From the IMG/VR virus record IMGVR_UViG_3300032294_001568, positions 1 through 20,193 of that record: a stretch of DNA of 20,193 bases; one strand, 5' to 3'. The notes under the pieces are model-generated. The model had not been told where the DNA came from. It searched no databases and saw only the letters and a program-made list of their open reading frames with translations. The position numbers were made by a program, and so were the translations under genes. The stretch's first letter is position 1, and every line of letters begins with the position of its first letter. This document shows, piece by piece, positions 201-20,193 of this stretch. The DNA comes from a virus.

Positions 201-1148
201 ATGGAAAAAATTTTAAAAATTAACCCCTCTCGATTTGTTATATTCCCAATCGAACATAATGATATATGGGAATTTTATAAACAACACCAAGCAGCCTTTT
301 GGACCGCAGAAGAAGTTGATTTAACAAATGATATTAGAGATTGGGAAACATTAACAGATAATGAAAAATATTTTATTAAAAATGTTTTATCATTTTTTGC
401 GGCATCAGATGGAATTGTAAATGAAAATTTGGCCGAAAACTTTTATAGGGAAGTTCAATATCCTGAAGCTAAATTCTTTTATGGTTTTCAATTAGCAATG
501 GAAAATATACATTCTCTAATGTATTCGTTATTGATTGACACTTATATTAATAACCCAAAAGAAAAAGACGAATGTTTTAATGCAATTGATAGATTACCTG
601 CGGTTCAGAAAAAAGCTAAATGGGCGTTAGATTGGATTGAAAATGCATCTTTTCAAGAAAGGTTAGTAGCATTTGCCGCTGTTGAAGGTATATTTTTTTC
701 AGGTTCATTTTGTTCAATATTTTGGTTAAAATCAAGAGGTATCATGCAAGGTTTATGTAACGCTAATTCATTGATTTTTAAAGATGAAAATTTACATTGT
801 GATTTTGCTATTCATTTGTTAAATAATCATTGTGAAAATAAACCATCAGAAAAAAGAATTAAAGAAATTTTATTATCGGCACTTGAAATTGAAAAAGAAT
901 TTATTACCGAATCTTTACCTATTTCTTTAATTGGTATGAATTCTAATTTAATGAAACAATATTTGGAATTTGTGGTTGATGGGTTATTGGTAAAAATGGG
1001 ATGTAGTAAAGAGTTTAATGTTGAACAACCATTTAAGTTCATGGAGCAAATTGCTGTTGAAACCAAAGGAAACTTTTTTGAATCAAGGACTATGGAATAT
1101 CAAAAAGCAAAATTAAACGAAACTATATCATTCACTGAAGATTTTTAA
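201..1148 (+). CDS. nrdB: Class Ia ribonucleotide reductase, small (beta, R2) subunit
   Basis: This subunit holds the diiron centre and tyrosyl radical that start reduction of ribonucleoside diphosphates by the large subunit. All expected ligands are visible: D40 in EEVDL, E101 and H104 in [10 protein letters not shown]162 in VEGIFFSG, and E196 and H199 in KDENLH. Y108, four residues after H104, is in the position of the radical tyrosine, so this is the classical tyrosyl-radical type rather than a tyrosine-less variant. The C-terminal tail ends in FTEDF, like the acidic aromatic tails that dock R2 onto R1. At 315 residues it matches the shorter eukaryotic/viral/Bacteroidetes-type R2. The ATG follows the upstream stop by two bases, with no Shine-Dalgarno match. 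nrdA follows after 11 bases, so the two should be made together in the infected cytoplasm. Confidence 0.97.
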
Positions 1149-1159
1149 ATTTATACATT

Positions 1160-3651: not shown

Positions 3652-4116
3652 ATGGCAGATGGAACAACATATGGTATAAATTTTCCTTTTAGAAACAACC
3701 CAAAAGGTTATTATTTTTCATTATCAGAAACAACTGACGAGGAAATAAGATCAAACTTATTACATTTAATTTTAACAAGAAAAGGTAGTAGGTATTTTCT
3801 ACCCGACTTTGGAACACGAATTTATGAATTTATATTCGATCCTTTAGATGGTGAAACATTTGAAGGAATAAAGGCCGAAATACAAGAACAAGTAGATAAA
3901 TATATACCAAATCTAATAGTAAATAATATATCAGTAACACCATATTTACAATCTGATGAAGCACCCGGTGAAATAAATTATGAACAATTGGGTCAAAATG
4001 ATATATATAAAATACCGGGTTCAGAAACATATGAATATACCGCAAAATTAAGAATTGATTATACCAATAATAATAGTTCTTTTGGTTCAAGAGAATTTAT
4101 AATAATTAACATCTAA
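3652..4116 (+). CDS. Baseplate wedge protein, T4 gp25-like (GPW/gp25 family)
   Basis: Proteins of this family join the baseplate wedge and connect it to the first sheath ring in contractile tails; members also occur in type VI secretion and extracellular contractile systems. The family signature is visible at residues 43-66: a basic Arg-Lys-Gly-Ser-Arg stretch, then LPDFGTRIYEFIF, corresponding to the conserved Pro-Glu/Asp-Phe-Gly turn followed by an amphipathic segment. The protein has 154 residues, slightly longer than T4 gp25, with an N-terminal extension (MADGTTYGINFPF) and a beta-rich C-terminus. The ATG has no Shine-Dalgarno match and follows the candidate promoter by five bases. The gp6-like gene starts one base after its stop, so the conserved gp25-gp6 core pair is kept together. 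It is the first gene of the virion module in this window. Confidence 0.9.
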   Translation: MADGTTYGINFPFRNNPKGYYFSLSETTDEEIRSNLLHLILTRKGSRYFLPDFGTRIYEFIFDPLDGETFEGIKAEIQEQVDKYIPNLIVNNISVTPYLQSDEAPGEINYEQLGQNDIYKIPGSETYEYTAKLRIDYTNNNSSFGSREFIIINI

Positions 4117-4117
4117 T

Positions 4118-5956
4118 ATGGCAACAAATAGAATAAATTACACTAGTAGGGATTTTGAAAGTCTTAGACAGGATTTAATTAACTACGCACAACAATATTA
4201 CCCCGAAGTTATTCAAAATTTTAATGATGCTTCAATATTTTCCGTATTGATGGATTTAAACGCCGCTATCGGAGACAATTTACATTTTCATATTGATAGA
4301 AGTATTCAAGAAACAGTTTTACAATATGCTCAACAAAGATCATCAATTTATAATATAGCAAGAACATACGGGTTAAAAATACCTGGATTTAGACCATCAG
4401 TTGCATTAATTGATGTATCAATACAAGTTCCGGCTTTTGGTGATAGTGAAGATACAAGATATTTAGGAATATTAAGATCAGGAGCTCAATTTAATGGTGG
4501 AGGAACAACTTTTGAAACGGTTTATGATATAGATTTTTCAACACAATATAATAATGAAGGTTTTGTTAATAGAACTAAAATACCAATTTTTGATAATAAC
4601 AATAAAATAACTGGTTACATAATAACTAAAAGAGAGGTTGCAGTTAATGGAGTCACAAAAGTTTTTAAAAGAGTAATTAATCCAAATGAGGTTGTTCCAT
4701 TTTTTAATTTCTTTTTACCTGAAAAAAATGTTTTAAGTGTTACATCTATTATTCAAAAAGATGGAACACAATATCAATCAACACCACCATCATCTGATTT
4801 TGTTACCTCACAAAATAAATGGTATGAGGTCGATGCATTGGCTGAAGATACCGTTTTTATTGAAGATACAACAAAACCTACAGATTTAGCGGGTTTAAAA
4901 GTTGGAAGGTATTTAAAAACTGACAATAGATTCATAACTGAATATACACCGGAAGGTTACATGAAAATTCAATTTGGTGGAGGAACCACAACACCAAACC
5001 AACAATTACAAAATTTTGCTAGACTTGGAGTTCCATTAGAGTTACAAAATTATCAAAATAACATCGGTTTAGGTTTAACGGTAACACCAAATACAACACT
5101 TTTTGTTCAATATAGAATTGGAGGTGGTATTTCATCTAACGTTGGTGTTGGATCAATAAATCAAATTGGTACTGTTGATTTAGCAGTAAACGGTCCGTCA
5201 GATATTATAAACTCAAATGTTGTAAGATCATTAAAAGTTAATAACGTGACATCTGCAGTTGGAGGGGCAAATCCACCAACAACCGAAGAAGTTAGAAATA
5301 TGGTTAGTTTTAATTTTGCTGCACAAAAACGAGCAGTAACTGTTAATGATTATAAATCTTTAATTGATACAATGCCAGGTAAGTTTGGTGCACCAGCAAA
5401 AGTTGCAATAACTGAAAATAATAATAAAGTTGTTGTTCAGATTTTATCATATGATTCAGATGGTAATTTAACACAACTTGTGCCTAACGCGTTAAAACAA
5501 AATTTAGCCACTTACCTTTCAAAATATAGAATGGTTAATGATTACATCTCTATTGATGTTGCAAAGGTAATTGATTTAGAAATTGAAGTTTCAATTGTTA
5601 TTGAAAATAACACATCACAAACTCAAATTATTACAGATGTTATTGATAAAATTTCAACATATATGCAACCAACAAGTAGAGATTTAGGACAAAATTTAAA
5701 TGTTTCTGACATTAGAAAATTAATACAAAACTGTGCTGGTGTAATAACACTTTCTGATTTAAAAATCTATAATAAAGTTGGTGGTCAATATTCATCATCT
5801 GAAACTTCACAAAGATACATAGATAAAGAAACAAAAGAGATTGAATTAATTGATGATACCATATTTGCCGAACCTGATCAAATATATCAAATAAGATTTG
5901 ATTCTAGAGATATTAATGTTAGAGTTAAACAACTTAGAACGGTAGACTTTTCTTAA
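4118..5956 (+). CDS. Baseplate wedge protein, T4 gp6-like (baseplate J-type)
   Basis: Gp6-type proteins dimerise to form the inner ring that ties baseplate wedges together; P2 gpJ is the distant equivalent. The N-terminal signature is clear: NYTSRDFESLRQDL near residue 7, then a Tyr-Pro-Glu, an Asn-Asp-Ala-Ser and a Met-Asp-Leu-Asn-Ala stretch, typical of T4-like gp6 (residues 7-70). A Phe-Gly-Gly-Gly turn near residue 282 and the RAVTVNDYKSLI motif near residues 404-415 match the core and C-terminal parts of baseplate J-like proteins. The length of 612 residues is close to the 660 of T4 gp6. It follows the gp25-like gene after a one-base gap, so translation is probably coupled. It ends before a 74-base gap that holds another candidate promoter. 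The family assignment is strong; details of assembly are by analogy with T4. Confidence 0.9.
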   Translation: MATNRINYTSRDFESLRQDLINYAQQYYPEVIQNFNDASIFSVLMDLNAAIGDNLHFHIDRSIQETVLQYAQQRSSIYNIARTYGLKIPGFRPSVALIDVSIQVPAFGDSEDTRYLGILRSGAQFNGGGTTFETVYDIDFSTQYNNEGFVNRTKIPIFDNNNKITGYIITKREVAVNGVTKVFKRVINPNEVVPFFNFFLPEKNVLSVTSIIQKDGTQYQSTPPSSDFVTSQNKWYEVDALAEDTVFIEDTTKPTDLAGLKVGRYLKTDNRFITEYTPEGYMKIQFGGGTTTPNQQLQNFARLGVPLELQNYQNNIGLGLTVTPNTTLFVQYRIGGGISSNVGVGSINQIGTVDLAVNGPSDIINSNVVRSLKVNNVTSAVGGANPPTTEEVRNMVSFNFAAQKRAVTVNDYKSLIDTMPGKFGAPAKVAITENNNKVVVQILSYDSDGNLTQLVPNALKQNLATYLSKYRMVNDYISIDVAKVIDLEIEVSIVIENNTSQTQIITDVIDKISTYMQPTSRDLGQNLNVSDIRKLIQNCAGVITLSDLKIYNKVGGQYSSSETSQRYIDKETKEIELIDDTIFAEPDQIYQIRFDSRDINVRVKQLRTVDFS

Positions 5957-6030: not shown

Positions 6031-9000
6031 ATGACCAAAACATATAGGATAAGAACCACACCTGGTGACGATAAAAACATAAGAATTAATATAAACCAAG
6101 ATTTTGACTTTTTGGAGATATTATCCTTAAAGTTAAGACAAGACGATGTTTATACTAGGTTTTGTGCCGATTACGGTGTTGTTGCCGGTAGAGTTATAAC
6201 AAACGGTGGTTATGGTATACCAAACGTTAACGTGTCCGTTTTTGTTCCACTTTCTACTGAAGATGAAAATGATCCTGTAATATCTACATTATATCCGTAT
6301 AAAAATATTACACAAAAAAATGAAGATGGTTATAGGTATAACCTATTACCATACAAACAAGAATACCAAGGACACACACCAACCGGAACTTTTCCTGATA
6401 GAGAAGATGTTTTAACAAGAAGAGAGGTATTAGAGGTTTACGAAAAATATTATAAATACACTGTAAAAACAAATGAAAGTGGTGATTTTATGATCATCGG
6501 AGTTCCTTTAGGATCACAAGTTGTTATGATGGATTTGGACCTATCAAACATTGGATGTTTTTCATTATCACCATCTGATTTGATAAGATTGGGTATTGGT
6601 TCTGCAGGACAATTTAATGGGCCTCAATTTAAGTCATCAACAGATATTGATTCATTACCACAAATAGTTAATCAAAAAAAAGAAATAAACGTTACTTCTT
6701 TTTGGGGTGAAAATGAAATATGTGAAATTGGCATTACAAGAGTTGATTTTGATTTAAGAGATTTAGGTATTGAAATTAAACCGCAAGCAATTTTTATGGG
6801 GTCATTAGTTTCATCAACCGAAGAAGATTTTTTAAAATCAAATTGTAAACCCAAAAAAAATACAGGAAACCTTTGTGATATGACAACGGCTTCAGGTAAA
6901 ATTTTGGCAATCAGACAAACAATTAATTATGATTCTACAGGTTTACCAATACTTGAACAATTTTTATTACCTGAAGGTGGAAATGTAATTGATGACGACG
7001 GAACATGGTTGGTTGAGGTTCCGATGAATTTGGATTATGTGGTAACAGATGAATTTGGAAATCAAGTTATCTCAAACGACCCAAATATAGGTATACCAAC
7101 AAAGGGTAAATATAGATTTAGAATACAATATCAAAATGAGGATGGTTTAAATAATGATATATTAAGAGCCGATTACTTAGTTCCAAACATTAGAGAATAT
7201 GGATGGAATAGTAATGGTTTATTTTCATCAGTAAATCAAACACAACAATTAAAATCATATGCCTTTAGTTTAGATTGGAATGATTATGTTGACCCACAAG
7301 CAGCAATTAATTGTGAAGATTTTTTTTATGAATTTAATTATAATAAAGTATATACAATTGCAAATTTTATCGACAGATGGAAGTGGGGTTATAATAGAAG
7401 TAGACATTTAGGTATAAAAGAAATAACTGATAGAGCATGTGCAACAACAAATAATAGATTTCCAGTAAATGACGGTGTAAGAAATTTTGATTTTTTATTT
7501 TTCTTATTTAATTTGATGGTCACTATTTTTAGTCCTATAATGATTGCGTTAATTCCATTAATTCACATTATTGCATTTTTATTTCCAATTCTTAAATGGG
7601 TGTTGGTTGTTTTTATTGCTGGATTATTGGGTTATTTTGCTATATATTTTGGCATTGGTGCAGTATCTGCTTGGCCGGCGATTGGTTTAGCTATTCTTAA
7701 TGGATTAGCAACTATTGTATTTGCAACTGCTTTATCTTTATATACGGCGTTAATTATTAAAAAATGGGACGCAATAAAAGATGCTAAGTTTAAAGGAATT
7801 AATTTACCAATGATGTCTTTTCCTGATTGTGAAGCATGTCCTTGCGATTCTCCTGACTTAGAAACGGATGAAATATCAGGAAATGCTTTTGGAGGTGGAC
7901 AAGGAGGTAATAATCAAGTAGGTGATTATACAATTTATAGTAGAGGTGCTAGTGGGTTTTTAGCACCTGTCAACACTGTCATCACATGGTCATCTTTTAA
8001 TCCCGATAATATTGAAGAAGATGACTACGGAACAAACAAACAAGAAAAATATATTGCAGACCAATATGGTGTAAGATATGCGATTGCTGGATATCAACAA
8101 TATGGAAGTTCTCTTTTTGGGGTTCCTATTGTTTGGAAGTATTCACCGACAGAAAGATTTTTTAGACAAAAAACCATTACACTTTCACATTCATTAAATT
8201 TAATGAATTTAAGAACAAGATATTTTGATTCGGTTGCTCCAAATATAATTCAAACAACGGTAGTTAATCCAGGAACTCCGGCTTCTGGATCTTTTACTGA
8301 TAATGTATTAATATTATTATGTAATAATGATATAATTAATCAATATCAATCAGGGACAGTTGTGTCTTTTAATGATATTAATAACATAAATGACCCAAAT
8401 TTAACAGGTGTAACTATAGAAAATCAATTTGGAAGTAATTCTATAACAGGAACATCAAGTAATGGTACATTCGGTGTTCAGTTAAAGTATATTAATACAA
8501 ACGCAACTGAACAATCAACTACAGTTTATTTAACTGGTGATAGTTTGGTTTCAGAATATAAGTTTAAAACAGGTGTAGAATATTTTCAAGTAATCACTGG
8601 AATGACAGCACAACAAGCATTAAATATTGCATCGTCACAACCAAACACATATGATAGTATATTAAGAAGGTATATGATTAGTACCATTCAAGAAATATGT
8701 TATTGGCCAGATGGTAGTAGTAATACTGTATCACAAAATGTAAACCCTTTCACTTTAATAAATGATTGGCAAAATTTAAGTGTTTTATTTTTAGTAAAAG
8801 GTGTTGACGTATGGACTAAAAAACAAAATATTAAATACGATTTATCAAGGTTATTTGGTTTTTCATCTTTTAACAATCAAGTATCGGTTACCGGTAATTT
8901 CTTTATGAATATACCAATTCAAAAACCAACAGGAGCTGCTGGTATAGTAAATGATAAATCACCTGAATCACATTTAACAACCACAGCACCTTACGCAACG

Positions 9001-10965
9001 TCCTCATTATATCATCCACCATATGATTTTGTTGTTAGTAATTTTTCTGCCGTTACAACAAATACTATTCAATATTATTCATCTTTAGACAAAGAACATC
9101 CTAATACATATTTAGGTGGAGATGTTGATGATAACACATCAACACCAAACGAGATATTTTATAGATTAGGTACACCAACAGTAAATAGTGAAAGACAAGG
9201 TAATGTAGAGGGTGGATCATATTTAGGTACTTCAACACAAGCATGTGATAGCCAAAGTAGTATTACTTCGATCAATGCTAAACTATATTCACCAGCTTAT
9301 GTTACAACAAATAACATACTTTCGGTTACAATTAATAATGGAACGTTTACACATTGGGGACAAACCGTTAATAACGCAAAACTTGTTTTAAGAACCGATA
9401 GATTACCGACGTCAGATATAACACAAAATGTGGGTGTCGATTGTTATGCTTTACACCAAAATGAAAAATTTGTTAGCTATATTGTTAATGGCGCCGAATC
9501 AGTTCCAACAGTAAACACTAGTAGCACCGCAACTGACTCAACTAATAATTCTCAAGATATATCTGGAGATACCCCAAGTTTCACAGATGCTGTTCTTGGT
9601 TCTTTTAGTTGTGAAGGAATGGTTCCACTAAAATGTTATCAAAGTACTACAGACAGTAATGGGGATCCTACTGTTCAAGTGTTAAGTCCATGTCCTGATA
9701 ATGAAGATCCTGTTAGAATAAGTGGTGGTTGTTATCGTTTAGTTCAAAAACCATATGTTGTTGGTATTGGTAGAGATATACAAAATTTTTTAGAATGGAA
9801 AACAAGATTTAGATTTATGTTTGGTGCATGTAGAGGTGTGTTCTCACATGTATTTCAAAACAATTGGGTTAATGGTGTTTTATATATGTTTTCATTTAAA
9901 AAACAAACTATTTTTGATATTGTAGGGCAACCAAAAAAATATAAGTTTTGTGGTACATTTGACAATATATACAGACAAGGACAAGGTCCGATTTTTTATA
10001 CTGAAAACACAACAAACTCATTTTTTTACAGATCATCACCATATGATGGAAATAACTTTGTTGGGCAAGTTCTACAACAATCAACTTACAGTAACCCAAA
10101 TACTTATACAACACCAAATTTTAAAGGAACTAACGACAGAAACTTATTTTTTCCTACAACTATAATGGATTTAGGACCTAGAGATGAATTTATTAGTGAA
10201 ATATGTAATAATAGTGCATTTCAAGGATATATTGTTGATACAGTTAAATCGTCTTCATTTAATGATACTGCGGATATCTTGCAGTTAGCAATCATATCTA
10301 GATTGATGAACTCAAATTGGTTAAGTTCATTATTTAATGCTGGAGATGCTTCAATAAATAAATTATTTTCTAGAAGTGAAGATAGGTTAGATGGTGATAT
10401 TACACAAATGTTTAGTATTAATTCAGAATATGGTGTAGAACCGTTTAGTGATGATAATTATGGTGATAATGATTTATTTGTTCAAACAACAGGAGATGCT
10501 CTTGTTGGCATTTTCTTTTCATCAAATACTGAAAATAGAAAATTAATAAGCCCAGGCGTTGTTACTTTTTCAACAACACCACCATTATTTAATTATTATG
10601 GGTTTCCAAAATCACAAGAAGTACCGGTTTATAAATGGAAAAATGATAATCAAACAACTATTTTTGGTAGTGACACTAATGATTGGGTAACGGCACCTCC
10701 ATATTATTCACAAAAATATCAAGATCTAAATTTTGGATTACCAGCACCACCAGCATTGTCACCTTATTTTAATAATTCTAATACGGGACAAAAAGGTTAT
10801 ATTTATAATTCAGACCCAACAGGTAACCCAATAAGTACGTGGCCATCATCTCAATCAAGTTCATTTATTGTCGGAGCTCCTTATCATTTTTATTTTGGAT
10901 TAAGAAAAGGGAAAAGTGCTATTAACAGATATATAACTAAATATTTTTTAAATCAAGATGTCTAA
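6031..10965 (+). CDS. Very large putative baseplate/tail protein with a carboxypeptidase-regulatory-like N-terminus and an internal hydrophobic block
   Basis: I cannot assign this 1644-residue protein to a named family. Residues from about 54 (GRVITNGGYGIPNVNVSVFV) to about 180 look like a carboxypeptidase regulatory-like beta-sandwich: a Gly-Arg-Val strand, a Pro-Asn-Val turn, and a closing Gly-Asp-Phe-Met-Ile-Ile-Gly-Val-Pro stretch. Residues 486-577 are strongly hydrophobic and could form three or four membrane helices, ending in Lys-Lys-Trp. A cysteine cluster, DCEACPC (C600, C603, C605), and a Gly-rich linker follow. The remaining roughly 1000 residues are Asn/Thr/Ser/Tyr-rich and beta-like, as in virion proteins. 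In T4, gp7 follows gp6, so a peripheral wedge role is possible from position alone. The hydrophobic block is unexpected for a baseplate protein and could act in membrane contact or DNA entry. The last eight bases overlap the next gene. Confidence 0.85.
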   Translation: MTKTYRIRTTPGDDKNIRININQDFDFLEILSLKLRQDDVYTRFCADYGVVAGRVITNGGYGIPNVNVSVFVPLSTEDENDPVISTLYPYKNITQKNEDGYRYNLLPYKQEYQGHTPTGTFPDREDVLTRREVLEVYEKYYKYTVKTNESGDFMIIGVPLGSQVVMMDLDLSNIGCFSLSPSDLIRLGIGSAGQFNGPQFKSSTDIDSLPQIVNQKKEINVTSFWGENEICEIGITRVDFDLRDLGIEIKPQAIFMGSLVSSTEEDFLKSNCKPKKNTGNLCDMTTASGKILAIRQTINYDSTGLPILEQFLLPEGGNVIDDDGTWLVEVPMNLDYVVTDEFGNQVISNDPNIGIPTKGKYRFRIQYQNEDGLNNDILRADYLVPNIREYGWNSNGLFSSVNQTQQLKSYAFSLDWNDYVDPQAAINCEDFFYEFNYNKVYTIANFIDRWKWGYNRSRHLGIKEITDRACATTNNRFPVNDGVRNFDFLFFLFNLMVTIFSPIMIALIPLIHIIAFLFPILKWVLVVFIAGLLGYFAIYFGIGAVSAWPAIGLAILNGLATIVFATALSLYTALIIKKWDAIKDAKFKGINLPMMSFPDCEACPCDSPDLETDEISGNAFGGGQGGNNQVGDYTIYSRGASGFLAPVNTVITWSSFNPDNIEEDDYGTNKQEKYIADQYGVRYAIAGYQQYGSSLFGVPIVWKYSPTERFFRQKTITLSHSLNLMNLRTRYFDSVAPNIIQTTVVNPGTPASGSFTDNVLILLCNNDIINQYQSGTVVSFNDINNINDPNLTGVTIENQFGSNSITGTSSNGTFGVQLKYINTNATEQSTTVYLTGDSLVSEYKFKTGVEYFQVITGMTAQQALNIASSQPNTYDSILRRYMISTIQEICYWPDGSSNTVSQNVNPFTLINDWQNLSVLFLVKGVDVWTKKQNIKYDLSRLFGFSSFNNQVSVTGNFFMNIPIQKPTGAAGIVNDKSPESHLTTTAPYATSSLYHPPYDFVVSNFSAVTTNTIQYYSSLDKEHPNTYLGGDVDDNTSTPNEIFYRLGTPTVNSERQGNVEGGSYLGTSTQACDSQSSITSINAKLYSPAYVTTNNILSVTINNGTFTHWGQTVNNAKLVLRTDRLPTSDITQNVGVDCYALHQNEKFVSYIVNGAESVPTVNTSSTATDSTNNSQDISGDTPSFTDAVLGSFSCEGMVPLKCYQSTTDSNGDPTVQVLSPCPDNEDPVRISGGCYRLVQKPYVVGIGRDIQNFLEWKTRFRFMFGACRGVFSHVFQNNWVNGVLYMFSFKKQTIFDIVGQPKKYKFCGTFDNIYRQGQGPIFYTENTTNSFFYRSSPYDGNNFVGQVLQQSTYSNPNTYTTPNFKGTNDRNLFFPTTIMDLGPRDEFISEICNNSAFQGYIVDTVKSSSFNDTADILQLAIISRLMNSNWLSSLFNAGDASINKLFSRSEDRLDGDITQMFSINSEYGVEPFSDDNYGDNDLFVQTTGDALVGIFFSSNTENRKLISPGVVTFSTTPPLFNYYGFPKSQEVPVYKWKNDNQTTIFGSDTNDWVTAPPYYSQKYQDLNFGLPAPPALSPYFNNSNTGQKGYIYNSDPTGNPISTWPSSQSSSFIVGAPYHFYFGLRKGKSAINRYITKYFLNQDV

Positions 10966-12685
10966 CCAAAGTGAAATAAGAGTAGTTTTAGGATCTAAAA
11001 GATTTGCGGCAAATGAAAATAAAGGTGTTTGGATACAACCACCATTAACTTCAGACCAAAGAGAATTTGTTGAGGGTGATAGAACTATATTAGTAGACCA
11101 ACAAACCATTTTTGACAATGAAAGACAAAGTAGTAATAAATTTAGAATCGCAGGTAAAATAACTAATATCATAAATAATGATGTTTCAGGAAAAACTAGT
11201 TATTCACCTTATAAATTAAATTTATATTATACAAATCCTTTACAAAACGCCATTACATCATTAAACAACCCATCTTTAGCGTGGGAAGGTTACCCACAAT
11301 ATAATGAATTTGCGATTAGTAGAAATGAAGGAATACCAAACCACATACCGTTTATAAATAAAAGTGCATCAACATACAATTGGTCTTTTTATATTTCATA
11401 TGCTTTTTCTAGTACAACAGCACAAACAATGTCATACACAAATGAAAAATTTAATGTAACGAATAGTAATTTTATTTGTGGTGACGGTATACCATATGTT
11501 ATTAATTCAGGTCAATTTAACGGAAAAAGTTTAGTTTATTTTTATTGTGCCACAAACCATAACTTACAGGTTGGAGATTACGTTGAACTATCAACACCAA
11601 TTAATAATAAAAATACTTTTATTGTTTATTCATTAGGTGATGAAACATATAGATCTGAAGAAAATGTTTTTGCAATATATGATTTAAAATTTAATTCAAC
11701 AGACATACAAACAGGAACTTACGGAACCTTAAAGAGAATTACAAATATATCAAATTCGGCAGAAACAAAATCAATTTATTATGTTAGATTACATAAAATA
11801 TTAAAAACACCTGAAAGTTGCAATATTTCAAAAGCTGGTTTTGAAAACAATCCATTTTTTGTAAAAAGAAAAGTTGAATACTCAGCATTAACGCCAAATC
11901 AAATTGAAAGAATATCAGTTAAAGATGGAACACAAAGTTTTTCATATACGTTTGATAGTGATGTTTCAATTGATGGTTTAATGGATAATAATGGAAAACC
12001 AATAACTGAACTTTTTTTAACATTAATTGAAAGAGGTTATATGGGTTGGTTTAATAAACCATATCCTAACCAAAACTCACAACCAACTGGTTTAGATATA
12101 GGGTGGGAATTTAATTTTTTAAATAATTCTATTGATAACTGGTGGGACAAAACTTCTGCCATTAATAAAGACAATATACCTGTAAATTCTTATATAGCTA
12201 ATAATCAAACTTTTTATTATAACGAATACTTAAATGTTAATGATGTTATAAAAGGTGATTTTTGTGAATATAATTATTATGAACAAAAAGAATATGTTTT
12301 ATCAAAAATGGTTCATAAATATTCATTTAATGACCAAATATTTAGTAATAACGCAGCAACAAACTTACCTTTTGGTTATTTATATGTTCCACATAACAGT
12401 ATAAAAATAAAACAATTTAGTGATTATATCGAAAGTGGATCTAAAGATTTAGTGGACAATATACCTGGATATTCTTGGTATAGTGAATATGATGATGTTT
12501 GGTATTGGAGAGATCTTTACACATACGGTTACATCGATGGGGAAGGTTTGGGTGTTGATTACCCATTTATAAATGGTAGTCATTATCCTTTTACTAATTT
12601 AATATTTTTACAATATCCTGTTAAAAGAGATATAAATCTACAATCTTTAATAATAAAACCTTTAACTGACGATAACTGTGAATAA
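10958..12685 (+). CDS. Unrecognised putative virion (baseplate/tail) protein, 575 aa
   Basis: I do not recognise the family. The protein has no signal peptide or membrane segment. Composition is rich in Asn, Tyr, Ser and Phe with alternating hydrophobic residues, as in beta-rich phage structural proteins. Residues near the N-terminus (GVWIQPPLTSDQREF) and a middle part with HNLQVGDYVELS look like small beta-barrel pieces. The C-terminal region, around residues 505-527, is crowded with Trp and Tyr (YSEYDDVWYWRDLYTYGYID), which could form a tight core or a ligand surface. The ATG lies inside the end of the 1644-aa gene with an eight-base overlap (ATGTCTAA), so its translation is probably coupled. 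The next gene overlaps its end in the same way. Its location between wedge-type genes supports a role in the baseplate or fibre attachment, but this is inference. Confidence 0.85.
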   Translation: MSNQSEIRVVLGSKRFAANENKGVWIQPPLTSDQREFVEGDRTILVDQQTIFDNERQSSNKFRIAGKITNIINNDVSGKTSYSPYKLNLYYTNPLQNAITSLNNPSLAWEGYPQYNEFAISRNEGIPNHIPFINKSASTYNWSFYISYAFSSTTAQTMSYTNEKFNVTNSNFICGDGIPYVINSGQFNGKSLVYFYCATNHNLQVGDYVELSTPINNKNTFIVYSLGDETYRSEENVFAIYDLKFNSTDIQTGTYGTLKRITNISNSAETKSIYYVRLHKILKTPESCNISKAGFENNPFFVKRKVEYSALTPNQIERISVKDGTQSFSYTFDSDVSIDGLMDNNGKPITELFLTLIERGYMGWFNKPYPNQNSQPTGLDIGWEFNFLNNSIDNWWDKTSAINKDNIPVNSYIANNQTFYYNEYLNVNDVIKGDFCEYNYYEQKEYVLSKMVHKYSFNDQIFSNNAATNLPFGYLYVPHNSIKIKQFSDYIESGSKDLVDNIPGYSWYSEYDDVWYWRDLYTYGYIDGEGLGVDYPFINGSHYPFTNLIFLQYPVKRDINLQSLIIKPLTDDNCE

Positions 12686-13514
12686 TAATTATTTTAGATA
12701 TAGTGTTTCACCAAATGAACGGTTCATTAATATACCCGTTCAAATTGCATTTGATAATTTAGGAAGAGAAGACGGTATTGTAAACTTTGAAAATGATGTC
12801 TTAACAGAAATTATTAATGGTATTGATGATTTTGAAACTACGAGATTTGCAAATGCACCATACCCCACAAACCCAAGTGTAACTGAGGTTAATTATCAAT
12901 TTTCTTTTTTTAATTATAATAATAGTATTTCAGCTGCAACATCATCAGCATGGTCTGATTTATATGAAAATCAAACATTCACAAACAGCGAAGTTTATTA
13001 TTTTGCAAATTCGTTTAAAAATAGTTTTTTTAAATTGGATTTTTATGATACTAATACAAACGAAAATCAAAGAGCATATTTTAGTGTTATAATACCAACA
13101 CAACAAGGAACAAATATAAATGTACCAATAGGTAATGGACCACAAACTGTAGACATAAAAAGACCTTATTTTATTTTAGATTATGTAGGTGCCGATAAAA
13201 AAGGGTTCTTTTTTTATTGGCTTAAAGAACGTGATTATATAAATATAAATAATTTTTATATGACTGCAAAGTTTTATAACGGTAAAACTGGTCAATTTAT
13301 ACGTTTAATGAATGAACCACAATCGAGTTTTAATGGTTCAGATAAATTTAATTTTGATAAAAGCATTTATTTCTATTATAAGGTTGTATTAGATTATACT
13401 AATTATGAATATGAAATTTTTAAAGAAATACCACAAGTTGGACAACAACCGGTATTAGTTAGAGTAGGGGACAACGCAAACCCAATAAAATGGTATGAAT
13501 ATGTTAATCCATAA
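12678..13514 (+). CDS. Unrecognised putative virion protein, 278 aa, GTG start
   Basis: The frame opens with GTG at 12678, overlapping the previous stop by eight bases (GTGAATAA), the same geometry as the preceding junction. It is the only non-ATG start among the genes here. I do not recognise the family. The sequence is beta-like, with many Asn, Phe and Tyr residues and no membrane segment or signal peptide. A central part (KRPYFILDYVGADKKGFFFY, then a Trp-Leu-Lys-Glu-Arg stretch) looks like a folded core. Residues toward the C-terminus (FNFDKSIYFYYKVVLDYTNY) suggest further strands. The stop overlaps the next ATG by one base (TAATG). Unbroken linkage on both sides implies that its product is made with its neighbours and probably assembles with them. 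Confidence 0.82.
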   Translation: MNNNYFRYSVSPNERFINIPVQIAFDNLGREDGIVNFENDVLTEIINGIDDFETTRFANAPYPTNPSVTEVNYQFSFFNYNNSISAATSSAWSDLYENQTFTNSEVYYFANSFKNSFFKLDFYDTNTNENQRAYFSVIIPTQQGTNINVPIGNGPQTVDIKRPYFILDYVGADKKGFFFYWLKERDYININNFYMTAKFYNGKTGQFIRLMNEPQSSFNGSDKFNFDKSIYFYYKVVLDYTNYEYEIFKEIPQVGQQPVLVRVGDNANPIKWYEYVNP

Positions 13515-14602
13515 TGAATGAAATAAGGTATAGTATAGTAATTTCTCCTGAAGTTTTAAAAAATAGTATTGTTACTGAAAATTTTAGTGGTGATAGTGGA
13601 TTGAATACTTTTGGTGTATATTCTGGTATCTCTGAAATTTTAAGTGGAGGAACAAATGGTTCATCATTGTTGACTGGATTAACAATACCAATAATGTTTA
13701 CTCAATCAATAAATGATTTAGGTTTTTATAGTGTTTTTGATGGAGACTTATTACAAAAAGATGTTATTACAAACTTTTTATATTCTGCCGATACCAATAA
13801 CCCTTATAATATTTATGTTTATAATACATCTGGTGATTTAACAATTTCTTATTTATCATTTAGTAGTTTTTATGTTGATTGGGGTGATAACACAACAATA
13901 GATCAAATAACAAACCAACCATTAATGCATAGTTATCAAACAACGCCAGATGTTTACACAATTTCATTTTCAGGGGTTAATAGTTGGGGAACAACAGTAA
14001 TACAAAAACAAATATTTTTACCATCAACAAATGTTACAATATCAAATTTAGAAGGGACTGTAACATTTACACCACAAGGAGGAAATTGGTCAGGAATACC
14101 AACAACTTATGATTTTATTTTTACTGGAGATTCACAAAATAATTATCAATCACAAATATCTAGCACATATACACAAATACCGTTTCCCGTTTCTGGTTTT
14201 ACAACTTCAAAATTATTAAACCTTAAAAGATATGGACCTATACCATATACCATTGGTTACCCATTTTTTAAAAATAACCAATTGTATGGACAAGTTGATG
14301 ATATAACTCCTGACTATACTGAATACACCATAAATGGTATAAAATATTTTGATTTTACAAATGGTAACACATTATATTTGGCCGATAGTTCTGGATTTAC
14401 AATTGATAATATAATATTAAGTGCGATTACAAAAGATGAAAGATTATTGGATTTTGTATATGATCCCGAAGTTCAAAGTAATGTTTATATTGAAAGAGGT
14501 AAATATAGTGCTTTTGAACCACTACAAAGACTAGGTGAAATTGATAACATTGGAGATTTAGTTAGATATGGTTATAACTATTATAAAATTAATACTGTAT
14601 AA
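13514..14602 (+). CDS. Unrecognised putative virion protein with a PKD-like domain, 362 aa
   Basis: The start ATG shares its A with the previous stop (TAATG). An in-frame alternative start is not needed. Residues about 100-172 resemble a PKD-type immunoglobulin-like fold: YVDWGDNTTI at 120-129, then a His-Ser-Tyr, then VYTISFSGVNSWGTT. This mirrors the Trp-Gly-Asp-Gly / His-x-Tyr / Tyr-Thr-Val / Asn-x-x-Gly pattern of PKD domains, which are common in cell-surface and carbohydrate-binding proteins and in some phage fibres. A second beta-rich segment follows at about 173-215. The C-terminal third (GQVDDITPDYTEYTINGIKY onward) is not recognised, and ends in a Tyr-rich tail. No signal peptide is present. 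A structural role at the baseplate or fibre base is plausible; the PKD assignment rests on motif reading alone. Confidence 0.83.
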   Translation: MNEIRYSIVISPEVLKNSIVTENFSGDSGLNTFGVYSGISEILSGGTNGSSLLTGLTIPIMFTQSINDLGFYSVFDGDLLQKDVITNFLYSADTNNPYNIYVYNTSGDLTISYLSFSSFYVDWGDNTTIDQITNQPLMHSYQTTPDVYTISFSGVNSWGTTVIQKQIFLPSTNVTISNLEGTVTFTPQGGNWSGIPTTYDFIFTGDSQNNYQSQISSTYTQIPFPVSGFTTSKLLNLKRYGPIPYTIGYPFFKNNQLYGQVDDITPDYTEYTINGIKYFDFTNGNTLYLADSSGFTIDNIILSAITKDERLLDFVYDPEVQSNVYIERGKYSAFEPLQRLGEIDNIGDLVRYGYNYYKINTV

Positions 14603-14615
14603 AAAAACGACATAA

Positions 14616-14624
14616 ACTATTTAT
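14616..14624 (+). promoter_or_regulatory. Candidate late promoter element ACTATTTAT before the 302-aa gene
   Basis: This is a nine-base identical copy of the element at 6008-6016, ending 11 bases before the ATG. It sits in a 33-base gap, the only break in an otherwise overlapping run of genes from 10958 to the right edge. The gap is otherwise A-rich, with no hairpin. The promoter role is inferred. Confidence 0.42.
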
Positions 14625-14635
14625 AAAATAAAAAA

Positions 14636-15544
14636 ATGGCACTTGGCACATATGGAATTGTAAGACCGGCTGATGTATCACCTGAAGATGTTGATATTAT
14701 TCTTCATTATACGGAATCTAGGGATACTACTGATAATTTTACTTTAAAAAAATTAAATACTGCAAATATTTTAACACCTTATTTTCATAATGCAAATACT
14801 GGAGGAAATGCTGATGTAGAAATATTAGGTGGATTATATAATTTAAAATTACCAACAAGTGAGTTTAATAAAAAAGGTATTTACACATTAATGATAAGAC
14901 CTGCTGAAATTAGAACTACAATTTTAGATTGTGGAGTATTATCATCATTACCAAATGTAAAAGGGTTGATAATAGATATTAATCAGGTCCCTTCACAATT
15001 TAGAAATAAATTTGTTAACCAAGGTTTAGTTGGTTATAGGTTTGAATATCTAAATGATGACGGGACAAAAATACCAAACTTTTTTAGAATTGCTACTTCA
15101 TCTTTTTATTGCGAACCAGTTATAAGTGATCAAACAAATACATCACAAAAAGCAATTAGATATAGATATGTCGATAACCCAACAGATTTAATATTTGTAA
15201 CATTATCACCATCATCCTCACCAACTAATAAACCAACCGCCATACCGTTTATTGGTCAACCTAACCAAAATATAATAATAACAAATACTTTTTTTAATCC
15301 AATTACAATCGATATTCAAATGGCTGAACATGATATAGATACATTGGCAATTGCACTTTACGGTAATCAAACTAAAAGTATTGAAGATGGTATCTATACA
15401 CTTTATGATACTGCGGGTAATATATATAAACAATATAACTTGTTTGAAATTAGAGATAACTTTAATGAGTTACTTTATGAAGTTAGACAAGATCGAAATA
15501 ATAACATTGATTTTAGTAAAAATTTCACAAATATTATTAGTTAA
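14636..15544 (+). CDS. Unrecognised putative virion protein, 302 aa
   Basis: I do not recognise a named family. The N-terminus (MALGTYGIVRPADVSPEDVD) and the beta-rich body, with a Leu-Met-Ile-Arg-Pro strand and later MAEHDIDTLAIALYGNQTKS, read as a compact phage structural protein with no membrane segment or signal peptide. The C-terminal part (IYTLYDTAGNIYKQYNL) looks like a further beta domain. It is the first gene after the third candidate promoter, preceded by an A-rich leader with no Shine-Dalgarno sequence. Its stop overlaps the start of the 982-aa gene by one base (TAATG), so the two are probably translated together and may interact. A part of the baseplate or a fibre connector is the simplest guess from position. 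Confidence 0.84.
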   Translation: MALGTYGIVRPADVSPEDVDIILHYTESRDTTDNFTLKKLNTANILTPYFHNANTGGNADVEILGGLYNLKLPTSEFNKKGIYTLMIRPAEIRTTILDCGVLSSLPNVKGLIIDINQVPSQFRNKFVNQGLVGYRFEYLNDDGTKIPNFFRIATSSFYCEPVISDQTNTSQKAIRYRYVDNPTDLIFVTLSPSSSPTNKPTAIPFIGQPNQNIIITNTFFNPITIDIQMAEHDIDTLAIALYGNQTKSIEDGIYTLYDTAGNIYKQYNLFEIRDNFNELLYEVRQDRNNNIDFSKNFTNIIS

Positions 15545-18492
15545 TGGCTAAGAAAAAATTTTTATATCCACCAGCACCACCAGTAGGTTCAGACACACCG
15601 TTTGGTAATATTGTAGGGTTACAACTTACAACAGGTGGAGGTTTAACGCAGGGAAATTTTGAGTTTACACCATCAATATATGAAAAGGTAAATAGAAAAT
15701 TCGATCAAGGTATATTTTCAAAAAAATATAATTTAGAAAATTTAGACATTACTGACATATTACAAACAAAAAAACTAATACAAGAAAATTTTCAAGTTTA
15801 CCCAAATTTTGATATATCACAAGTAACAAGTTTTACAGTATATGGATCATTACAAAAAAGAATTTCAGCATCAATTACAAAAATAATTAATTATTTTCCA
15901 GCGGCGCTTGAAGTAAATTTTAAAACATTATCGTTAACAACAGGTTTAACAGCAACAAATATAGTTTATGACCCGATAGAGGATTTAACAACATTAGAAA
16001 TTAATGCTCCTTTTGCTAGAAATCCATTTGATATTGATTATAGTGTTAATGCTTCTAGAAATATTGAAGTTAGACCAATGAAAGTGTCACCATATAGAAA
16101 TATGACCAACAATTTCAATGATTTTTCACTTTATGTAAATAATTTAGAAAATGAATACCCATTGGTCGATTTTGAACCAACAGAAAAGGTTGGTGAAGGG
16201 TATATCTATATGACCGTTATTGGTGATCCGTTTTCAGGTCTTACATCAACAACAGATACCTTAATTATAAAACCAAACTATTTTAAAACTCAAGAAATAT
16301 TAAAAAATAATTTTGATGAAGTTGAAAAGTTTTTATTAAACACAAATACAAGTCCTAAATATACCGCAAATTTTAGTTATCCAGAATATTCTGATAGTGG
16401 TGATTATGTTACTAAAGAAAAAAAATTAACATGGTTATTGGATGGTTTATGGAATTTAGATATTAGAACATCAACATTTGATAATTATTTGGACCAATTA
16501 AATTTAATAAGCCAAAATTTAGATGAATTTAGCACAAATTTAATATCAAGATTTTTGGTAACAGGTTCGTTGAAAGAATTTGATACTCAAGATCAAAAAA
16601 TGGAAAAAATATTACAACTTTATGGTCGAAGTTTTGATGAGGTTAAAAAATTTATTGATTCATTAGCCTTTATGAATTCTGTTAATTACATACCTAAAGA
16701 TGATATACCATCTCAGTTGTTATATAATTTAGCACAAACATTAGGTATTGAAACCAATATTTCACCAATCAATAATGAAGACCTTTTAAATTCATTATTT
16801 CAAACATCAAAACAAAGAATTTATTCAGGTCAAACAGAATCTTTAACACCATTAGAATTAAACTATCAATATTATAGAAATGTTATATTAAATTCGGCTT
16901 ATATGTTCAAAACAAAAGGAACAAGACAATCTTTAGAATATATTATGCGTTTTATAGGTGCACCTGAAGCAATAACAGAATTTAACGAAATAATATATTT
17001 AGCAGATGCTAAAATTAATGTTGATGAATTTAAAGAATCTTTTGCTAACATATCTGGAGGAACCGTCTATGTTGAAAGGCCGGCATTGGACCCAACAAAC
17101 ACATTTTCAATTTTAGGTGTAACATATACTGGTTACACAACAGATGGAACTGTAGAACAAGTCACTCTTGGTGAGTCGGACTATGGTATTTCTGAAGATG
17201 GATTTCCTAAATCACCATCAAGTACTGACGATTACTTTTTTCAAAAGGGGTCTGGTTGGTTTGAAAAAAACCCAAAACATCGATCACCACAAGTTGTAGA
17301 TGAGGAAAATTCACAACTTAATCAAAACAACCCAAATGTTGTTACAAAATTACAACCATATAGTTATGGGCAAGAATATTTAGATAGATATAGAAAATTT
17401 CCTTTCATGAATCAAGGTTATACAATAAGAAAAGTTATTGATAATCAAAAATCTTGGCCGGTAGATTCTGTTGGAAGTAGAAAAAATAATTCTAATTTTG
17501 GTGGTGTAGATTATAAAACATCAAGTGATAAATTGGTTTTAAATTCTAAAAATATAGAACTTAATGTAAACGTAGGACAAGGTTTAATTTATGATATTTG
17601 GGATATGTCAGTTAAGTACGATTACCCAATACCAAATTCAGGTCTTACATCGCCTTATCCATATCCAGGAGATATTGATTGGACATTTGTTAATCCTAAG
17701 CCAAAAGAAAAAACATTTTTTGAATTTGCTCAAACATTTTTTAATAATTTAATAAACGTAAGAAATAGACAAACAATAAATGATGGTAAATCGGGAGGTT
17801 ACCCAACACTACAATCAATTTATTGGAAATATTTACAATCAGAACAAACAGTTGGGATACCATCAAATAAATTTACATATCAAAAAATGATTGACTATAC
17901 GTTAGGTTTAGGTGATCATTGGCAAAGGTTATTAGAACAGGTGGTGCCGGCTACCACACTTTGGCTTACAGGGGCTAAAATGGAAAACTCTATTTTACAT
18001 AGACAAAAATTTGTATGGAGAAGACAAAGAGGTTGTCAGTTTATACCTGTCGCTTGTATACCTTGTGAATATAATGGTCAGTTATTTGCTTATGACTGTA
18101 TTGACCAAACACTAAGTTGTAAATTAAGTAATAAGTCATACCAAAAAGTTTTAGCCGATGTAGTGAAGAATTTTTTAAAAAATAATGGTTATACTATCAA
18201 CCAATGTGATTTAAATAGTATTGTAAGTAATTGGTATATTGATTGTAGATTAGATAATGACATATTAGTACAAGAACAATTTTTTACAGGTTACGGATCA
18301 AACGACTTACCAACAACAACACAAGTTTTGAATGCGATAAACGAAAAACTGGAAAAATTATATCAATTTGGACTTAATTATTATTTTGCGGGAAATACTT
18401 TAATAATAAGTAACTCCACTTGTTATGATGACTTTACAAATAAAACATTATACCTGAATATTGGTATAGATATACAAATTAACTGTGGATAA
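15544..18492 (+). CDS. Large putative baseplate/tail protein with a gpI/gp7-like stretch, 982 aa
   Basis: The start overlaps the previous stop by one base. The N-terminus is Pro-rich (KKKFLYPPAPPVG). Residues about 456-475 read KTKGTRQSLEYIMRFIG, resembling the Lys-Gly-Thr helix of P2 gpI-type tail proteins, the family to which T4 gp7 wedge proteins are distantly related. Near the C-terminal third, EQVVPATTLWLTGAK and HRQKFVWRRQRGC form a second dense, well-ordered segment. After it comes a cysteine-rich tail (an Ala-Cys-Ile-Pro-Cys-Glu, a Tyr-Asp-Cys-Ile-Asp, a Leu-Ser-Cys-Lys and more), ending in Asn-Cys-Gly. This could be the wedge partner of the gp6-like protein, or the adapter that holds the fibre encoded next. 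There is no membrane segment or signal peptide. That it is a real gene is near certain; the gpI/gp7 link is moderate to weak. Confidence 0.87.
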   Translation: MAKKKFLYPPAPPVGSDTPFGNIVGLQLTTGGGLTQGNFEFTPSIYEKVNRKFDQGIFSKKYNLENLDITDILQTKKLIQENFQVYPNFDISQVTSFTVYGSLQKRISASITKIINYFPAALEVNFKTLSLTTGLTATNIVYDPIEDLTTLEINAPFARNPFDIDYSVNASRNIEVRPMKVSPYRNMTNNFNDFSLYVNNLENEYPLVDFEPTEKVGEGYIYMTVIGDPFSGLTSTTDTLIIKPNYFKTQEILKNNFDEVEKFLLNTNTSPKYTANFSYPEYSDSGDYVTKEKKLTWLLDGLWNLDIRTSTFDNYLDQLNLISQNLDEFSTNLISRFLVTGSLKEFDTQDQKMEKILQLYGRSFDEVKKFIDSLAFMNSVNYIPKDDIPSQLLYNLAQTLGIETNISPINNEDLLNSLFQTSKQRIYSGQTESLTPLELNYQYYRNVILNSAYMFKTKGTRQSLEYIMRFIGAPEAITEFNEIIYLADAKINVDEFKESFANISGGTVYVERPALDPTNTFSILGVTYTGYTTDGTVEQVTLGESDYGISEDGFPKSPSSTDDYFFQKGSGWFEKNPKHRSPQVVDEENSQLNQNNPNVVTKLQPYSYGQEYLDRYRKFPFMNQGYTIRKVIDNQKSWPVDSVGSRKNNSNFGGVDYKTSSDKLVLNSKNIELNVNVGQGLIYDIWDMSVKYDYPIPNSGLTSPYPYPGDIDWTFVNPKPKEKTFFEFAQTFFNNLINVRNRQTINDGKSGGYPTLQSIYWKYLQSEQTVGIPSNKFTYQKMIDYTLGLGDHWQRLLEQVVPATTLWLTGAKMENSILHRQKFVWRRQRGCQFIPVACIPCEYNGQLFAYDCIDQTLSCKLSNKSYQKVLADVVKNFLKNNGYTINQCDLNSIVSNWYIDCRLDNDILVQEQFFTGYGSNDLPTTTQVLNAINEKLEKLYQFGLNYYFAGNTLIISNSTCYDDFTNKTLYLNIGIDIQINCG

Positions 18493-20193
18493 TGGCTTGT
18501 ATTAGTGGATTTACATTAGGGGGATATTACAACTATATTGATTGTTGTGGATTTAATCAAACAGGGTTATCACCTGGTTTAGAAAGCGTATGTATTGACC
18601 AAACATATTCTGGAACTACGGTAGGTATTTTATTTGATTCTGGATCAACTTGTACTCAAGATTGTAATCAAGGGCCGTTTAACTATAATTTTCAAGTAAC
18701 GGGAATTTGTTCGGCGGTAACCGGAACTGTTGTAATTAATGGTGTTGGTGGTATATTACCATATACTATAACACCCATTAGTCCATTAGGTAGCGGATTA
18801 TCAGCACAAACAGGAAATGGTCCATTTACTTATACTGGGTTAACTGGTGGAACTTATGTGTTTAGAATAAATGATACCACAGGACCAACTAACAACGAAT
18901 TATATTTTAATGTTGATATATCTGATTGTTTTGTTGCAAATATTTACGATTTGTCTGGTACAACTTGCGGATTTGATAACGGCGAATTTAAAGTTAGTGC
19001 AACATCAACTAGTAGCCCATACACTATTTTACTATACAAAGATTCAGTCTTTAATCAATTACAAACTACTAACATATTACCGTATACATTTACAAACCTA
19101 TCAAGCGGTGTGTATTATGCTGAAATTTACGATTACGGATATTCAACCGCAAAAACTGAAAACGTTGTTATTAGTGCTAGTACAGGACCTGATTTTGGAT
19201 TTTGGAAAGTAGATACATCAACATGTGTCATAACAGGAGGAAAACTTTCAGTAACAGGAGTTACAGGTAACGGTCCATTTAGTTATTTATGGAGTAATGG
19301 TGAAACAACACAAACAATAACTGGTTTAACTTTAGGCACATATAGTTGTGTAGTGACAGATAGTTTAGGATGTGCAACAACTAAAAGTGAATTTGTAAAT
19401 AGTGCATTACCTTTTGGTGTTGGTTTAGTTACATCGGTTAATCCTTCTTGTTTTGCTTCTGACGGATCATATACCTATACATTTACAGGAGGAACTAGAC
19501 CTATATATTACTCTGCTGCAACTGGACAAGTTGGTTATACTTTTGGTGATACCGTAACATTAAATAATTTACCAAGTGGTTCTTATGATGTTTACGTTAG
19601 AGATGCTAATTTTTGTCCTCTACAATTAAATGCATTTGTATCACCACAAAATGGGTTTAATGTTGTTAATACTATTGTAACCAACTCAAATTGTAATTCT
19701 AACAATGGAAGTATATATGTTCAACTACAAGGTTTAGGAGGGTTTTATAGTTATAATTTATCTGGTCAAAATACAAATTATGTATTTACAACTACAACAC
19801 AAGATCAATTCTATACCTTTAATAATCTAAGTAATGATAATTATTTACTAATAATATCAGGTTCAGGAACTAATTGTTTTTATGCTGATAATATAACAAT
19901 TAATTCATCACAAAAATTTGATTTAACGGCAACGACAAGTGGGTCAAGCTGTGGGTTAACTAATGGTTCTGTTTCAATTAATGTTGGTAGTGGATATACT
20001 GGTGTTTTAGATTATATTTTAAGCGATGGGCAAAGTGTTATTGATTATCCTTATAGTTCTTATACTTTTAATAATTTATCATCTGGATCTTACACTATAA
20101 ATGTTGTTGATCAAGACGGGTGCTCAGTTTCAGAATCATTTAATATTGTAACAACAAATGGAATCCTTAGTTCAGTAATAACCACTAACTGTA
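18492..20193 (+). CDS. Putative tail fibre/adhesin with SprB-like repeats (partial, continues past the right edge)
   Basis: The ATG at 18492 overlaps the previous stop (TAATG). I read the frame codon by codon to the right edge and found no stop: 567 codons plus one base. After a Cys-rich N-terminus (MACISGFTLGGYYNYIDCCG), the protein is a chain of repeats that open with Cys and a Gly-rich strand and, in most units, close with a Gly-x-Tyr strand and a terminal Cys. Opening cysteines are residues 73, 159, 245, 320, 401, 487 and 567. Unit 3 shows the pattern best: YLWSNGETTQTITGLTLGTY, then a Val-Val-Thr-Asp stretch ending in Gly-Cys. This matches the SprB-repeat pattern of gliding Bacteroidetes surface adhesins. 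No signal peptide is visible, unlike secreted adhesins, which fits a virion part. Its place after the baseplate genes suggests a receptor-binding fibre. Total length and C-terminus are unknown. Confidence 0.88.
   Translation, partial: MACISGFTLGGYYNYIDCCGFNQTGLSPGLESVCIDQTYSGTTVGILFDSGSTCTQDCNQGPFNYNFQVTGICSAVTGTVVINGVGGILPYTITPISPLGSGLSAQTGNGPFTYTGLTGGTYVFRINDTTGPTNNELYFNVDISDCFVANIYDLSGTTCGFDNGEFKVSATSTSSPYTILLYKDSVFNQLQTTNILPYTFTNLSSGVYYAEIYDYGYSTAKTENVVISASTGPDFGFWKVDTSTCVITGGKLSVTGVTGNGPFSYLWSNGETTQTITGLTLGTYSCVVTDSLGCATTKSEFVNSALPFGVGLVTSVNPSCFASDGSYTYTFTGGTRPIYYSAATGQVGYTFGDTVTLNNLPSGSYDVYVRDANFCPLQLNAFVSPQNGFNVVNTIVTNSNCNSNNGSIYVQLQGLGGFYSYNLSGQNTNYVFTTTTQDQFYTFNNLSNDNYLLIISGSGTNCFYADNITINSSQKFDLTATTSGSSCGLTNGSVSINVGSGYTGVLDYILSDGQSVIDYPYSSYTFNNLSSGSYTINVVDQDGCSVSESFNIVTTNGILSSVITTNC
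18708..20189 (+). repeat. Six complete SprB-like protein repeat units (about 75-86 codons each)
   Basis: Unit starts, marked by the opening Cys codon, are at 18708, 18966, 19224, 19449, 19692 and 19950, and a seventh opens at 20190. Spacings are 86, 86, 75, 81, 86 and 80 residues. Closing cysteines are seen at residues 146, 294, 375, 462 and 544, but unit 2 lacks one and has Tyr-Gly-Tyr-Ser there. The units are diverged in DNA sequence, so this is a protein-level repeat rather than a recent tandem duplication. Confidence 0.8.

Follow-up and report, generated by a model that had tools for sequence, protein, structure and literature searches.

The closest precedent for the protein that we describe here is the group of BACON-repeat tail-associated proteins of crAss-like phages (PMC6949934). 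These BACON arrays have been suggested to act in host binding, and in the crAssphage lineage duplications gave rise to an array that differs from the bacterial copies (PMC6949934). On the bacterial side, the gliding adhesins SprB and RemA have been named as possible phage receptors (PMC13288928). We found no description of SprB repeats in phage tails in the literature, most subscription journals lying outside the scope of the search, and the one full-text match of "SprB repeat" with "phage" concerned Bacteroidetes toxins. SprB repeats have already been annotated automatically in a phage protein, A0A6J5LD72, which carries the database label "SprB repeat [uncultured Caudovirales phage]". Here, we analyzed a 20,193-base IMG/VR virus fragment of a T4-type phage (the window; 29% GC) that contains a gene built of SprB-type units. 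Our preferred reading, to which we assign a probability of about 0.7, is that this gene encodes an extended tail arm with interchangeable tips in T4-type phages that probably infect Bacteroidota. Like the BACON arrays (PMC6949934), the product is a tandem array of a Bacteroidota-associated beta-sandwich domain, encoded beside tail genes. Unlike them, it belongs to the SprB family and to T4-type phages, has a C-terminal domain in common with a baseplate-cluster protein, and is accompanied by exchangeable tips and a neighboring GlcNAc-type transferase.

The 5' part of the SprB-unit gene (567 aa) occupies positions 18492–20193 on the plus strand, where it is truncated by the end of the contig. 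As the initial annotation had read it, the frame (18492–20192) runs off the edge and encodes a chain of Cys-bounded repeats. We set the unit boundaries from the alignment, from unit-versus-unit comparison, and from the AlphaFold model of an orthologue (locus L072). A Cys-rich N-terminal beta domain, delimited by the alignment and the same model (residues 1–72, 18492–18707), is followed on the plus strand by unit 1 (residues 73–158, 18708–18965), unit 2 (18966–19223), unit 3 (19224–19448), unit 4 (19449–19691), unit 5 (19692–19949), unit 6 (19950–20189), and the first Cys codon of unit 7 (20190–20192), the remainder of the gene lying past the contig end. The Cys residues that start the units stand at positions 73, 159, 245, 320, 401, 487, and 567 of the protein, giving spacings of 86, 86, 75, 81, 86, and 80, in agreement with the initial annotation, and units of 74–86 residues each. 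A profile search against the SprB family, proposed when the frame was first noticed, matched PF13573 (1.2e-7, 31.6 bits) above its curated cut-off of 28 bits. The units are 24–45% identical to one another, most comparisons reaching z ≥ 3 over shuffled sequence. The pattern WSNGxTTQ with GxY...DxxGC, which had been ascribed to the repeats as a whole, holds in part: only unit 3, which is also the best conserved, has all of it (WSNGETTQ / GTY / DSLGC), unit 6 keeps the second half (GSY...DQDGC), and units 1, 2, and 5 show degenerate forms. A start Cys together with DxxGC near the end of the unit is found in full in units 3 and 6 and in unit 7 of relatives.

The repeats also sit in line with baseplate genes, as had been claimed. 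These are, of a T4-type baseplate, wedge gp25 (3652–4116) and a gp6/baseplate J-like wedge gene (4118–5956), both on the plus strand. Between gp6 and the SprB-unit gene lie five large genes with no clear match to a known family; they are followed by a gene for a 982-aa protein (15544–18492, plus strand), which abuts the SprB-unit gene. Elsewhere in the window, two genes immediately ahead of the baseplate genes (201–3583) appear, from a reading of their translations, to encode the two subunits (small and large) of a class I ribonucleotide reductase, and a 1644-aa gene between gp6 and the later tail genes (6031–10965) has a long hydrophobic stretch at about residues 490–580 and no tblastn match in 50,697 phage records. 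The core of the 982-aa protein aligns with baseplate-region proteins of two named phages: over about 170 residues, its family profile matched a large protein of Microcystis phage Mel-JY01 (1e-5) and one of Flavobacterium phage immuto (7e-5), at matching positions and in genes located after gp6. Because of its gene position and this profile match, we infer that the 982-aa protein is a wedge protein of the gp7/gpI kind. The gene had no tblastn match in the phage records, its profile had no credible match in the PDB, and its AlphaFold model (pLDDT 56) had no significant Foldseek match. Immuto (vB_FspM_immuto, NC_055915.1) has the same gp25–gp6 order as the window, as well as a large protein whose core matches that of the 982-aa protein, whereas its fiber and spike genes have no SprB match.

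The major capsid protein T4 Gp23 is encoded on two long relative contigs, one of 281 kb. None of the 11 genes in the window has a Shine-Dalgarno-like motif upstream, and gp6 is closest, among host-named records, to that of immuto, with Mel-JY01 almost equally close. Both the missing motifs and the proximity of gp6 to immuto fit a Bacteroidota host, which we consider likely. A search of 395 Bacteroidia genomes for the 982-aa protein, aimed at finding a host and run without a positive control, gave no match.

To view the complete gene we relied on relatives. A scan with the 982-aa protein returned 75 loci, from which we inspected 37 representatives and aligned 32 sequences. In all 64 loci with enough sequence beyond it, the 982-aa gene is followed by the SprB-unit gene as the next large gene. 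That the gene runs past the contig end in the window might otherwise have pointed to misassembly or host DNA at that end; this explanation is already refuted by the conserved synteny, the same junction, flanked on either side by phage genes, recurring in 64 contigs. The SprB-unit protein is usually 763–775 aa long without a tip and up to 1153 aa with one, and in it the Cys-rich N-terminal domain leads into the seven units. A flexible linker and a C-terminal alpha/beta domain come next, and in many relatives a further linker and a variable tip are added behind that domain. One 1838-aa variant (L063, 12955–18471) has about 700 residues added at its N terminus, including Pro-Thr-rich stretches. 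The contig extension that the initial annotation had called for was thus obtained through relatives, in which the full gene has phage flanks and no sorting domain above the cut-off. The Pfam families matched by these proteins include no C-terminal trimerization or chaperone domain such as Peptidase_S74.

Structure prediction, likewise proposed at the outset, gave seven SprB-type beta units. AlphaFold run on the alignment with the L072 orthologue (mean pLDDT 80.8) produced a chain of seven beta-sandwich units, a low-confidence linker at residues 633–655, and a C-terminal domain of the order H-E-E-H-E-E-E; with a pTM of 0.35, the individual domains of this model are credible and the overall shape of the arm is not. 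The best matches among solved structures were fragments of GhpA from Aureispira sp. CCB-QB1 (9flw, 9flp, and 9fly; E ∼1e-18, 15–20% identity), and the best viral structural match was A0A6J5LD72 (E 3.5e-60, 35% identity). GhpA differs in scale, being a giant bacterial surface hook with entry residue numbers up to 5009, as against about 770 aa for the phage chain. Many phage Ig proteins also match by fold, and the profile has weak matches (3e-4 to 2.5e-3) to the Ig domains of phage decoration and neck-whisker proteins, as would be expected if the units were generic phage Ig-like decoration domains, of the sort found in the T5 decoration protein or Hoc, and the likeness to SprB reflected a shared fold only. 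However, those matches score about 19–22 bits, whereas bacterial SprB-type units, mostly of the two-Cys kind, reach 62 bits, and of the Pfam families SprB alone matches every one of the 32 aligned members (E ≤ 0.01, best 3.1e-20). We therefore regard a generic decoration domain as quite improbable.

An HMM built from the phage units alone found 1577 units in the bacterial proteins of 78 loci, 1133 of them with two Cys, in a set that is not independent since these loci had been fetched with the phage alignment. Nearly all records with cellular relatives of the units are titled Bacteroidota. The phage protein shares its repeat family, including two-Cys units, with Flavobacterium johnsoniae SprB and other SprB-repeat surface proteins. 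It differs from these proteins in lacking a signal peptide and a type IX C-terminal domain and in its seven fixed and diverged units, its phage-specific N- and C-terminal domains, and its tail locus. The claim that the repeats lack a secretion signal was borne out: the N termini of the homologues inspected have neither basic residues nor a strong hydrophobic core by a simple hydropathy count, and no type IX sorting domain scored above the cut-off in the 32 members (the window frame itself ends before the C terminus). A Por_Secre_tail match in L063 was internal and below the cut-off, and we rejected it. Since both the signal peptide and the sorting domain are absent, we conclude that the protein is not a SprB adhesin, though it is built of SprB-type units.

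When the window frame was compared by tblastn to the 50,697 phage records, the only match was LR756502.1, a 642-kb "huge phage" record (L096). It encodes a 1670-aa protein (12325–17337) with 13 SprB repeats, a PKD domain, and a CHU_C type IX secretion signal; the gene adjoins SpoVR and glutamate synthase genes, and ribosomal protein S12 was not found in the record. This protein looks like a true secreted Bacteroidota-type adhesin, and we rejected it as a homologous tail arm because it is of this different, secreted type. Its presence in a phage record lends some color to the idea that the SprB-unit protein of the window acts outside the virion, at the surface of the infected cell or secreted from it, for instance as an adhesin that changes the cell's behavior. 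We consider this very improbable given that the members inspected have no signal peptide, that no sorting domain scored above the cut-off in the 32 aligned members, and that the gene keeps a strict position behind a baseplate-cluster gene with which it shares its C-terminal domain.

The array is old. Across phages, identity between units at the same position is 50–70%; inside a single phage, units from different positions are on average 31% identical. A tree that also includes bacterial units resolves six of the seven positions as a single group each, the remaining one requiring one extra step; fork support ranges from 58 to 100, and with only 81 columns the direction and number of transfers between phages and bacteria are not readable from this tree. 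The separate clustering of the positions indicates that the seven-unit array predates the split of these phages, and sequence comparison places the acquisition of SprB-type units as ancient. The suggestion that the phage had captured host surface modules therefore needs qualification: units of the SprB family in a phage tail gene cluster agree with it, but an array this old and fixed does not reflect a recent capture.

We compared the ends of the two neighboring proteins. The C-terminal domain of the 982-aa protein (18109–18489, plus strand) aligned with that of the SprB-unit protein by hhalign (P 6.3e-6, probability 85%). Although the AlphaFold model of the 982-aa protein is of poor quality as a whole, it is good in this region, where it places H866–880, E889–903, E906–917, H925–942, E944–949, E952–957, and E969–980, so that two separate models give the same H-E-E-H-E-E-E order. 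We conclude from the alignment and the models that the two C-terminal domains are homologous. A profile of this domain had no credible match in the PDB, and tblastn against the phage records returned a chance-level match only; it is probably a docking or oligomerization module. The two proteins also have a tip module in common. In L033, the homologue of the 982-aa protein bears a 250-aa Pro-Thr linker plus tip that matches the tips found on the SprB-unit proteins in L039 (E 1e-30) and in L036 (E 4e-22), which indicates that at least one tip type is common to both proteins. Tips vary from 0 to 367 aa while unit lengths are nearly constant across relatives, and the tip in L022 contains a Fib_succ_major domain (1.6e-16). 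No reverse transcriptase for a diversity-generating retroelement was found on 12 contigs, all of them fragments. Together, the shared C-terminal domain and the shared tip module point to a tail arm or adaptor.

The units could instead bind the host surface themselves, whether a polysaccharide or a partner in the gliding machinery, so that the protein would bind the receptor and functionally mimic the host adhesin. The units are, after all, homologous to Bacteroidota surface repeats, host binding has been suggested for the BACON arrays of crAss-like phages (PMC6949934), SprB and RemA are themselves candidate phage receptors (PMC13288928), and many members are tipless, so that the repeats could bind something conserved. 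However, the number and length of the units are constant across divergent phages, and the diversity is located in the tips and in separate fibers. Conservation of the units and the N- and C-terminal domains (47–64%, the C-terminal domain at 57%) is also about that of the 982-aa neighbor (61%). With a conserved core and variable tips, the repeats resemble a scaffold more than a determinant of specificity, and we consider direct receptor binding unlikely.

The genes that follow lie beyond the end of the window and were read from relatives. Directly 3' of the SprB-unit gene are one or two genes for mutually related proteins of about 95 aa; by profile, these proteins are related to the SprB units (8e-8) and correspond to single SprB-like units. 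These genes (L072, 15275–15571; L021, 17644–18223) recur ahead of a second fiber-type gene, which suggests adaptor–fiber pairs. Fiber genes come after them, one with a Peptidase_S74 chaperone (L067) and one with collagen-like repeats below the cut-off. Also downstream is a 400-aa GlcNAc-type glycosyltransferase (PF11397, 4.3e-67) with a well-conserved DSHmRF motif, present in 47 of 64 loci and in 45 of the 48 that have at least 5.6 kb of downstream sequence. Its gene lies 0.6–5.5 kb downstream of the SprB-unit gene (for example, L021, 19336–20577), and on a few contigs a second glycosyltransferase stands beside it (Glyco_transf_34, 2.6e-22; L021, 20579–22282). The GlcNAc-type transferase also has relatives in jumbo phages, namely XacN1 of Xanthomonas and the two Stenotrophomonas phages CM1 and RAS14. 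The SprB-unit proteins contain about 25–29% Ser plus Thr, and we hypothesize that the arm is glycosylated by this transferase.

The tail-arm reading draws on unit homology, a fixed seven-unit architecture, gene neighborhood, the shared C-terminal domain, and the tip type common to both proteins, all established at the level of sequence and predicted structure; from these we infer that the SprB-unit protein is part of the virion. It would be a structural tail protein in which the Cys-rich N-terminal domain and seven Ig-like SprB-type units extend as an arm, while the C-terminal domain, of the same family as that of the 982-aa neighbor, may dock or oligomerize it. The domains behind the C-terminal domain in many relatives would serve in recognition. 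The arm would project from the baseplate and position the tips and the downstream fibers for adsorption, and the neighboring GlcNAc-type transferase may glycosylate those stretches of it that are rich in Ser/Thr or Pro-Thr. More speculatively, and in our view improbably, the virion arms could copy the gliding-adhesin coat of the host, glycosylated by the phage GlcNAc-type transferase, and bind SprB partners or polysaccharides on neighboring cells, so that the phage is held at, or moved along, the gliding surface before the tips find a receptor.

If the protein is a tail arm, SprB would follow BACON as the second family of Bacteroidota surface domains from which phages have made a tail-associated array, and this array appears to be a fixed and ancient part of a widespread uncultured T4-type lineage. 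A plug-and-socket logic is visible in the C-terminal domain common to both proteins and in the exchangeable tips. The locus suggests a substrate, open to testing, for a phage-encoded GlcNAc-type glycosyltransferase, and it provides markers with which to find the hosts of these phages and to test phage adsorption to gliding bacteria.
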